Source of the DNA: an uncultured Bacteroidales bacterium
GTDB taxonomy: Bacteria > Bacteroidota > Bacteroidia > Bacteroidales > Bacteroidaceae
Direction: 5' to 3'
Length of the DNA: 57,852 nucleotides
NCBI GenBank assembly: GCA_902773055.1
Contig: CACYCZ010000124.1
Location: 1-57,852, forward strand
A program made the translations under genes and the position numbers. How positions within the stretch are numbered: the stretch's first letter is position 1; each line of letters starts with the position of its first letter. A model generated the notes under the pieces. That model saw only the letters and a program-made list of their open reading frames with translations. It did no database searches and was not told where the DNA came from. Below, in pieces: positions 6,881 through 51,468 of this stretch.

Positions 6881-6984
6881 GCTATATTTACAGGCGGAGC
6901 GATACTGGCATGTTTTACCTGTTTTTAATAGATTTTAACATTTTAAGCATCTTTGTCTTGAATGCCTGAGTACCACGTCTGGAG

Positions 6985-7096
6985 GGTATTGCAGAGGGGG
7001 TGAATTTTGCAGGCCTGCCAGTTTTTGCTACAAAGCCTTCCAGCAAAAACCAGCAGGCCTGCCAGCAAAAACTGTAAGGCCGCGGAGAGAAGAATG
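6985..7096 (-). repeat. Copy A of the four-unit AGGCCT / 22-bp hairpin element
   Basis: The 524-bp gap 6776-7299 holds a terminator, this repeat and a promoter element. Four units lie at exact 22-bp steps with cores at 7011, 7033, 7055 and 7077; two cores are exact AGGCCT, the others AAGCCT and AGGCCG. Arms 7011-7038 and 7055-7082 match at about 21 of 28 positions around a 16-nt loop. Compared with copies B and C it is inverted: the conserved flank (AAAATT then a C-rich run ending CTCTGC on the minus strand) lies to the left. It is the most degenerate of the three copies. Confidence 0.85.
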
Positions 7097-7267
7097 GAAC
7101 GGCGGAGGGTGCAAAAAACAGTCAAGAAGTATTAATTTTATTTAAAACCCTGCCGGCTGTTTGCGAAGCGTAATGCGGAAAATGAGGCAGGTTGCAGGCG
7201 GAAGGCGTTTTTTCCTGTTTTTATATATTTTGCCTGTAAATCCTGCCTAATCTCCCGATTTTATTTG

Positions 7268-14625: not shown

Positions 14626-14663
14626 ACAAAAAAGGAGACTTATGTAAGTCTCCTTTTTTGTGT
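14626..14663. terminator. Bidirectional terminator between GH127 and tRNA-Tyr
   Basis: ACAAAAAAGGAGACTTA (14626-14642) pairs perfectly with TAAGTCTCCTTTTTTGT (14645-14661). The A-run and T-run make it usable from both sides, serving the plus-strand glycosidase pair and the minus-strand ribH-tRNA unit. Confidence 0.88.
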
Positions 14664-14745
14664 GGGTAGTGATGGATTCGAACCACCGAAGGTAAAAACC
14701 AGCAGATTTACAGTCTGCCCCATTTGACCGCTCTGGAAACTACCC
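14663..14745 (-). tRNA. tRNA-Tyr (GTA anticodon)
   Basis: On the minus strand the 7-bp acceptor stem GGGTAGT (14745-14739) pairs with ACTACCC (14670-14664), discriminator A at 14663. The D-loop region AGAGCGGTCAAATGGG, the anticodon arm CAGACTGTAAATCTG, a long class II variable arm and the T arm GGTTCGAATCC are all present. CCA is not encoded. It follows ribH by 22 bp on the same strand and is followed directly by the terminator. Confidence 0.97.
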
Positions 14746-22253: not shown

Positions 22254-22483
22254 CTGTTATAATGAAATACAAAATTACCACAAAGTTTTTATTGCAGAAA
22301 GCCTGTCGGGAATATATTTCCACCAAACTGCATATTGGACAGGATTAAACATGATTTTGGAGCACTTTCGCATGAGGAAAACTGTCGCCTGTAGGCTGCT
22401 GTTTTTTCAGAAGAGCTAATTTAGTAAATTTTAACAAAAATTGGGTGTCTTGTGTCTTCTCCTGTGAAGCTTTAAAATTTCTC

Positions 22484-22600
22484 AGGCCTTGCAGTTTTTA
22501 CTGGCAGGCCTACAAAATTTCACCAGCAGGCCTGCCAGTAAAAACGCGCAGGCCTGCAAAATTTGACCCCTCTACAGTGGCTTCTGAGAGGGGTGGAGGA
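22484..22600 (+). repeat. Copy B of the four-unit AGGCCT / 22-bp hairpin element
   Basis: The 432-bp gap 22254-22685 between two minus-strand genes contains this element and otherwise only AT-rich sequence. Four exact AGGCCT cores start at 22484, 22506, 22528 and 22550 (exact 22-bp period). Arms 22484-22511 and 22528-22555 match at 24 of 28 positions around the 16-nt loop 22512-22527. After the last core comes the family flank (GCAAAATTTGACCCCTCTAC), where ACCCCTCT (22566-22573) and AGAGGGGT (22587-22594) form a second 8-bp stem. It has no ORF or cas-like neighbours. Confidence 0.9.
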
Positions 22601-22685
22601 TTTAAGGTAAAATGAGTTGCTTGTATGTTAATGGTTGTTAATTAATCAGGATGCCTGCAGGAATGGAAGCGACAGGAAAATGGAC

Positions 22686-37847: not shown

Positions 37848-38122
37848 AAGATAAGCAAAATACTTTCTGTATTCTGAGGTAACAAGATACTTAAGGGAAA
37901 ATAAGATTTACTCCAATCATAGAAAGGAATATATCCCAGAATTATTTATATTTTCCTGTGCTGAATGTATGTTTCCTATCAGGAAATATATGTTCACCAT
38001 TGGGGAATTTATGTTTACCGATGTTAAATATAAACTTCTGCAGTGTGTAATATTTTTTGTTTGCTTGGTTTAACTTCTTATAATAGCCTTTGCTGGAGAA
38101 AATAATAGTTCTTCTACTTAGT
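37848..38122. other. Intergenic region with degenerate 21-bp tandem repeat
   Basis: The 342-bp gap between the convergent TRIC and trxB genes has no gene. Units starting at 37961, 37982, 38003 and 38024 are 21 bp long and related (GGAAATATATGTTCACC; GGGAATTTATGTTTACC; the outer two are more diverged). The frame is open over these units but has no start codon and is bounded by TAA, so it is probably noncoding or a relic. The perfect hairpin 38123-38180 follows. Confidence 0.6.
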
Positions 38123-51098: not shown

Positions 51099-51290
51099 AA
51101 TAATTGGCAATAATAATAGCTAAGATTTTAGGTATTATGAAATTGCGAATCTCTTGTGAAAATCCCTCCTTTATTTCTAAGGAATGAAGATATCCTTCTT
51201 TGTTTCTTGCTGAATTTGCATATCAATTTGTAAGAAATTAACAGGAATTAACTTTTTGCAGCATCCCGCATTTTTGTCTTGTAAAGTTGC

Positions 51291-51400
51291 AGGCCTGGCG
51301 GTTTTCACCAGCAGGCCTGCGCGTTAAATTTTGTAGGCCTGCCAGTGAAAACTGCCAGGCCTACAAAATTTACCCCTGCTACAGTATGCTCTGGTGAGGG
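51291..51400 (+). repeat. Copy C of the four-unit AGGCCT / 22-bp hairpin element
   Basis: The 499-bp gap 51099-51597 lies between convergent genes and holds this element plus the terminator at 51469. Four exact AGGCCT cores start at 51291, 51313, 51335 and 51357, an exact 22-bp period. Arms 51291-51318 and 51335-51362 match at 25 of 28 positions, one mismatch being a G-T pair. The flank after the last core, ACAAAATTTACCCCTGCTAC, aligns with copy B. The stretch before the array (ATTAACTTTTTGCAGC) resembles the same side of copy A. Confidence 0.9.
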
Positions 51401-51468
51401 TGTTGTTTAAGAAAAAGCCTGTCTTTTGAATGTTAAAGATTGCTAATATCCGTTTTTCCTGACAAATT

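Follow-up and report, generated by a model that had tools for sequence, protein, structure and literature searches.

Phased AGGCCT arrays dispersed between the genes of an uncultured Bacteroidales bacterium: a possible platform for a dimeric DNA-binding protein

The window, i.e. the whole stretch of 57,852 bp that was analysed, is contig C124 of the home assembly (2.62 Mb, 153 contigs) of an uncultured Bacteroidales bacterium. Three copies of an element built on AGGCCT palindromes, A, B and C, were found in it, none of them inside the long ORFs of the window (Table 1). Copies B and C have four exact cores each at a spacing of exactly 22 bp. The original prediction had assigned four such cores to all three copies, which was confirmed for B and C but not for A, where two cores are exact and two carry one mismatch. 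The spaced pair AGGCCT-N16-AGGCCT occurs six times in the window, each time in B or C, with 0.01 occurrences expected. The extent first given for the element of copy B, 22484–22600, was too short, as the conserved unit runs over about 22420–22641. A different four-unit array, F2, is also present, and the comparison of the window with 4,227 Rfam families at the gathering threshold resulted in one tRNA only.

Table 1. Coordinates of the features located in the window.
Feature	Position	Strand	Description and basis
Copy A, cores	7011, 7033, 7055, 7077		7011 and 7055 exact; 7033 = AAGCCT; 7077 = AGGCCG
Copy A, complete element	6925..7147	-	HMM match 6970-7089, E 2.7e-28; ends set from family offsets
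tRNA gene	14663-14745	-	Sole Rfam match in the window
Copy B, complete element	22420..22641	+	Left box, four cores, hairpin, right box; from copy alignment, information profile and box offsets
Copy B, left TTAAC box	22420..22436	+	TTTAGTAAATTTTAACA; inverted relative to the right box
Copy B, cores	22484, 22506, 22528, 22550 (span 22484..22555)	+	Exact AGGCCT; three 16-nt linkers
Copy B, C-rich hairpin	22567..22593	+	CCCCTCT...AGAGGGG; 3' of core 4; family-conserved; pairs in the fold of copy B
Copy B, right TTAAC box	22626..22641	+	TGTTAATGGTTGTTAA
F2, window copy	37913..38060	-	Four 21-bp units in a convergent gap; HMM match E 8.5e-26
Copy C, cores	51291, 51313, 51335, 51357	+	Exact AGGCCT
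Copy C, complete element	51227..51446	+	HMM match 51280-51403, E 9.2e-32; ends set from family offsets

The exact three-core pattern, which is its own reverse complement, had 92 matches on the plus strand of the home genome and none in the reversed control, as expected from the claim of many genome-wide copies. A looser pattern, three GGCC at a 22-bp period, gave 111 matches and again 0 in the control. The sample used for the detailed analysis consisted of 40 fetched stretches and the window, together 761,057 bp (29% of the genome), and is biased, because its contigs were picked from those listed with matches. The element profile detected 40 distinct copies in the sample, one of them cut by a contig end, and no tail of broken copies apart from fragments at contig ends; 38 copies were complete enough for gap-free alignment. 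Of the 92 exact triples, 50 are in the sample, from which the total for the home genome is extrapolated to about 74 elements. A first estimate of about 137 copies, calculated from the density in the sample, was discarded, since contigs with matches had been selected. The hexamer AGGCCT itself was counted 270 times in the sample, 125 times within the 38 elements, and 153 occurrences were expected by composition. The suggested role of the hexamer as a methylation target is not supported by these counts.

One polar anatomy with a length of about 220–228 bp is common to the 38 complete copies. The consensus order is an AT-rich left box (TTTAAnAAAATTAACA), about 48 nt, the four cores with their 16-nt linkers, GCAAAATTTACCCC, the hairpin up to GGGGTG, about 30 nt, and the right box (TGTTAATnATTGTTAA), the TTAAC of which is inverted relative to the left one. 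The design of four units at 22 bp turned out to be nearly fixed: four exact cores were found in 12 of the 38 copies, three in 25 and two in 1, and the inexact core was usually core 1, often TGCCC or another variant. The information content was 1.35 bits per position in the array, 1.02 in the hairpin and about 0.45 in the two boxes. The spacers, with 0.24 and 0.12 bits, are weakly conserved, although a slight similarity is kept in comparison with the 0.03–0.04 bits outside the element. The consensus boxes are inverted (TTTAAnAAAATTAACA versus TTTAACAATAATTAACA), and single copies match them at 8–14 of 16 letters on the left and 7–16 of 16 on the right. The best match of the left box was located at one of two offsets from core 1 (36–37 or 46–48 nt) in 27 of 38 copies, and that of the right box at one of two offsets from core 4 (60–61 or 68–71 nt) in 34 of 38. 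At least 13 letters of a box were matched at 46 places in the sample, 34 of them within 120 bp of an element, and one whole-sample shuffle gave 14 in total; at 12 letters the corresponding values were 72 of 198 and 124, a comparison that is not independent, since the box consensus was derived from the elements themselves.

The gene context of the home genome and of the related genomes UBA1391 and G007 was determined with a simple ORF caller, not from curated annotation. The intergenic location claimed for the window copies applied likewise to the sampled genome copies. Of 37 placed copies, 24 were in divergent gaps, 9 in same-direction and 4 in convergent gaps, and 3 further copies were at the edge of a stretch; the divergent share expected by weighting with intergenic bases was 42% (p = 0.004). 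The motif TAnnTTTG, which we take to be the -7 box of Bacteroidetes promoters, was found in 53 of the 60 start-facing flanks, in the interval from the element to the gene, compared with 7.4 expected from shuffles, and in 3 of 17 flanks that face a gene end. It was situated 69–607 nt outward of the element edge and, in 41 of the 53 flanks, at most 50 nt from the start codon. The elements thus lie upstream of promoters. The same motif is common ahead of genes at large, 170 of 254 starts having it at most 150 nt away, and the position of the element alone is no proof of a promoter role.

Tandem-repeat scans of the 761-kb sample showed also period 21 and led to F2, an array of four units of the type TATGTTCACCGATGGTGAACG. 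The sample contains 19 copies of F2. Its pattern matched 55 times on one strand of the home genome and 75 times on the other (control 0), and not at all in 18 genomes of the same genus; with 26 of these 130 pattern windows in the sample, about 95 copies are extrapolated genome-wide. In 16 of 20 start-facing flanks of F2 the TAnnTTTG motif was found, with 2.3 expected. No sampled gap of 100 bp or more held two elements. The 87 gaps of at least 300 bp included 36 with the AGGCCT family (F1), 13 with F2 and 0 with both, with 5.4 expected (p = 5e-4), and in the 46 divergent gaps alone F1 (24) and F2 (6) never occurred together (p = 0.008). That a gap holds a single element and that the two families exclude each other suggests a shared job or a harmful effect of a second element. 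As side observations, one F2 copy (L107 11349-11505) has a perfect inverted repeat spanning two units, and two neighbouring gaps of the home genome (L121 5341-5546 and 6773-6960) carry arrays with a 16-bp period.

None of 60 relatives, made up of 18 congeners, 18 members of the family and 24 of the order, has the exact three-core pattern. The looser GGCC pattern matched in 14 of 150 genomes, and after the home genome the highest counts were 15 in G028 (control 7) and 10 in G125 (control 1). In named genomes the exact pattern was present in at least 94 stretches; 34 of the 80 matches listed came from Prevotellaceae bacterium UBA1391, and among the matches listed were also Bacteroidaceae, Prevotella, Bacteroidales bins, actinobacteria, deltaproteobacteria and other phyla. 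The named genomes that share the pattern, a serine palmitoyltransferase of the CFB type and the promoter box point to the Bacteroidales as the order of the home genome. When these matches were masked, hexamer triples in the surrounding 694 kb clustered at periods 22 (29 clusters, at least 23 of them from UBA1391 alone), 44 (25), 21 (9) and 18 (6). Several gaps of UBA1391 (L041 3913-4039, L078 2795-2907 and others) hold unrelated 22-bp arrays, some of which are near-perfect minisatellites.

Periods were further determined from 7-mers repeated within gaps. A peak at 22 was obtained for the home genome (43 gaps; median over distances 5), for G028 (7; median 1) and G098 (13; median 1), for which 5 of 5 and 3 of 5 stretches, respectively, had been placed on GGCC-pattern matches, and a weaker one for G026 (5 gaps; median 2). 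In the case of G007, of the same genus as the home genome, the peak was at 21 (20 gaps; median 5). Eleven other members of the family, sampled together, gave 13 each at 21, 22 and 42 (median 4), and 10 genomes of other families of the order gave 7 at 21 (median 3), but more at 8. The signals of G020 and G065 were weak, and G018, G023 and G027 had no clear period peak. The non-coding repeats reported by TRF were of period 22 in 71 of 91 cases in UBA1391, a biased count as its loci were fetched by the AGGCCT pattern and those arrays are included unmasked, and in 20 of 22 in G098, 10 of 10 in G028, 3 of 3 in G020, 3 of 6 in G026, 2 of 3 in G023 and 17 of 33 in the home genome, which had 12 more at period 21. 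Only two of five were of period 21 in G007, and none was detected in G018 and G027. Three arrays of period 23 were seen in two other families of the order (G054, G038: L235 8231 and 9647; L228 168), with units CTCACAAGTTTGTCAGTTTTTAC and AATTTGCACAA.

G007 has a family of its own, of about 220 bp, with 21-bp units around GTTTAAAC. The profile of this family gave 24 matches, 16 of which cover most of the element and two of which mark the same place, leaving 15. Stretches similar to TATATAAAA are located in direct orientation at both ends of these elements (L156 5524-5744 and others). Fourteen elements were assigned a context: 3 divergent, 6 tandem, 4 convergent and 1 at an edge; TAnnTTTG was present in 12 of 12 start-facing flanks. 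A general preference of such arrays for divergent gaps was therefore rejected, being true for F1 (24 of 37) but not for G007 (3 of 13 placed) or UBA1391 (10 of 50 placed, in loci fetched by the AGGCCT pattern). Because TAnnTTTG is common before genes and G007 lacks the divergent preference, the upstream placement may reflect only the avoidance of damage.

In the 18 same-genus genomes, 53 non-coding segments around two genes and a few paralogues were scored with a cut-off of at least 36 of 63 matches. The cut-off was reached by 12 segments, and the highest of 53 shuffled segments scored 34. Eight of the 12 have period 21 (six genomes, with one sequence shared by G006 and G016); period 22 is found in one (G001), and the periods of the other three are 14, 16 and 43. 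Arrays of period 21 or 22 were thus detected around the two genes in 7 of the 18 genomes, with three to five units, often four, and the segments seen around these genes in the other 11 contained no array. The original interpretation is supported in part; F2 and the differently spelled arrays of the relatives had been missed.

The closest same-genus genomes, according to four proteins (67–94% identity), are G017 and G004. The divergent gap between the serine palmitoyltransferase and lipid kinase genes is 638 bp with the element in the home genome, and 190 bp in G017 and 125 bp in G004, both without an array. The gap between the genes of rpoN and a cytochrome bd-like oxidase is 653 bp in the home genome and 183 bp in G017, without an array; it is also array-free in G002 (about 370 bp), where the gene start was poorly matched. 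The comparison of orthologous gaps proposed originally thus gave array-free gaps at two conserved gene pairs. Copies A and B gave no clean comparison: no AGGCCT array was found upstream of the copy-A gene in 17 relatives, where the neighbour gene often differs, and for copy B the contigs of the two nearest relatives end about 80 and 50 nt upstream. The segment missing from the array-free gaps is about 450–510 bp long, more than the element itself, and the sequences have diverged too far for its ends to be located. A gain in the home lineage appears likelier than a loss in the relatives.

With moderate confidence, we propose that the arrays are dispersed, lineage-specific, non-coding elements of the MITE/BIME type which provide a phased platform for a dimeric protein. 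The cores are conserved, their spacing is near-constant and the spacers are little conserved, which points to recognition of the DNA by a protein. The four dyads, two helical turns apart, are on one DNA face, an arrangement that suits cooperative binding of dimers. From the observed phasing, palindromes and core conservation we infer a sequence-specific dimeric protein, for which the four dyads would form a cooperative platform; an array of sites for such a protein is our best guess at a function. The element would act as DNA, outside the interval between promoter and gene, and its copies were probably gained in the home lineage, as the array-free gaps suggest. Some relatives retain the plan of the array, with a period of 21 or 22 and three to five (often four) units, but not its sequence, so the recognition and the sequence probably turn over together. 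The middle linker occurs in both orientations, which would be expected if it were flipped by template switching or by recombination between the inverted arms. Candidate jobs are chromosome organisation, insulation between divergent promoters, or transposition only.

In the last case the elements would be purely selfish non-autonomous transposons, the phased sites being bound by a transposase without a host function and the intergenic copies being survivors of selection. We consider this less likely. The end sites to which Tn7- and Mu-type transposases bind are about 22 bp long. The inverted TTAAC boxes near both ends, the slight similarity of the spacers, the absence of the element from relatives, the array-free gaps, and the spread of the G007 family across all gap types agree with mobility, as does a second subtype of 9 of the 38 copies, the flanks of which were judged by eye to be more alike. 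In contrast, no target-site duplication was found in the flank-pair scan of the 38 copies (best z about 3 among about 2,600 combinations, the best 200 of which were shuffled), and truncated copies were seen only at contig ends. Under free insertion, neither the limit of one element to a gap nor the mutual avoidance of two unrelated families would be expected.

The elements might instead be structural DNA, a cruciform absorbing negative supercoils between divergent promoters or a by-product of template switching, with no specific protein. Linkers 1 and 3 of copy B are near reverse complements, and the strand folds into arms with a 16-nt loop; the hairpin proposed for the arrays was reproduced with a smaller loop in copy C, whereas copy A folds in a different register. 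Among the six sequences folded, B, L116, C and A folded well as DNA (z -8.7, -7.3, -6.9 and -4.8, respectively) and L100 (-3.0) and the F2 window copy (-2.0) less well. The strong folds of B and L116 and the preference for divergent gaps favour a structural role, and the orientation of linker 2 can be taken in the same sense: it was the consensus one in 26 copies and the reverse complement in 12 (8 close calls), with linker 1 constant in 38 of 38 and linker 3 in 36 of 38. The two orientations explain the negative dyad score of linker 2 (z -4.5); no dyad excess was detected at cores 1–4, and linkers 1 and 3 gave z 2.5 and -3.4. Nevertheless, a structural role alone is improbable. The other folds are weaker or in another register, and the covariation of the arms is at most marginal: in 23 of the 38 copies, 16 cells with both sides changed were counted versus 10.8 expected, 29 of 500 shuffles were equally high and slid versions were all lower, the excess of complementarity over all 38 copies was z 1.8, and 1 of 16 arm pairs tested singly had p < 0.01. 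Moreover, structure by itself does not require the core letters that are kept.

A role as RNA, be it as a terminator, an attenuator, a 5'UTR structure or a small RNA (the regulatory RNA of the original prediction), is very improbable and was rejected: the stable pairing of the arms in copy B, the C-rich hairpin 3' of core 4, the four copies in convergent gaps and the promoter activity reported for the comparable BrickBuilt element (PMC4596501) would suit it, but the arrays are outward of the promoter boxes, most of which are close to the start codon, the arm and hairpin covariation is marginal, the Rfam search gave no match to the element and the consensus has no conserved T-run.

The platform for a dimeric protein may not be restricted to the home genome. 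We put forward tentatively that many Bacteroidales carry a general class of about four palindromic sites, 21 or 22 bp apart, one per gap, whose letters are replaced wholesale between congeners, and which would be undescribed. Intergenic repeats are usually grouped into families by sequence. In the present arrays the spacing and, roughly, the number of units recur from species to species and the sequence does not, which suggests selection on the phasing together with a protein of quickly changing specificity. Such a class would mean that a nucleoprotein system operates across the genome and that its recognition code evolves fast, i.e. a rapidly turning-over factor that organises the chromosome or insulates promoters. 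Congeneric species would then serve as natural replicates for finding the protein and its role between genes, and the class would help to explain why gaps long in one species are short in close relatives.

In comparison with known systems, the elements have the traits of MITEs in being short, non-coding and dispersed with common ends (40 copies in 761 kb). The MITE-like character suggested earlier is supported in part, by the inverted TTAAC boxes near the ends and the array-free gaps in two relatives, but no target-site duplication was found. REP and BIME elements are short intergenic palindromes in many copies with a sequence varying by species, associated with RAYT transposases and GTAG/CGTC tags. 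The elements studied here are likewise short, palindromic, intergenic, multicopy and of species-differing sequence, and differ in the four-unit array with its 22-bp phase. The Y1_Tnp domain (PF01797) had 0 matches in the home genome, which is 95% complete, and at least one in 30 of the 61 genomes searched; the suggested RAYT-type REP identity was rejected on this account. No GTAG/CGTC tag was seen by eye in the consensus, and some copies contain GTAG at the junction of linker 3 and core 4. Lacking a target-site duplication and a RAYT gene, the element falls outside the MITE and REP classes or does not clearly belong to them. The BOX and RUP elements of streptococci are short modular intergenic elements with hairpins and no genes; we know of no two-turn four-core array among them.

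The earlier statement that no described family with this design is known agrees with the Rfam result and with the openly licensed literature, in which neither a four-unit array at 22 bp nor a two-turn class of the Bacteroidales was found described; the arrays may represent an undescribed class of DNA element. The TAACTGA direct repeats of Beggiatoaceae and some Bacteroidetes are likewise abundant intergenic repeats ahead of genes, but they are reported as heptamers close to start codons without 22-bp palindromes (PMC4679880) and were rejected as unrelated. The closest published element found is the BrickBuilt MITE of Porphyromonas gingivalis (Klein et al. 2015, PMC4596501). BrickBuilt is reported to form species-specific, always intergenic tandem arrays of a 23-nt unit, AGAYCATARTATCCTCTCRTRTG, with 1 to 22.8 units per copy, leader and tail parts, terminal inverted repeats and IS5-like GAGACC ends, both end repeats being kept in only 4 of its 19 copies, and promoter activity has been reported for it. 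Both elements are intergenic arrays of Bacteroidales with a unit of about two helical turns, and the consensus boxes near the ends of the present element are inverted as well, whereas the arrays of the home genome are distinguished by the 22-bp AGGCCT unit, the four cores and a different sequence and ends.
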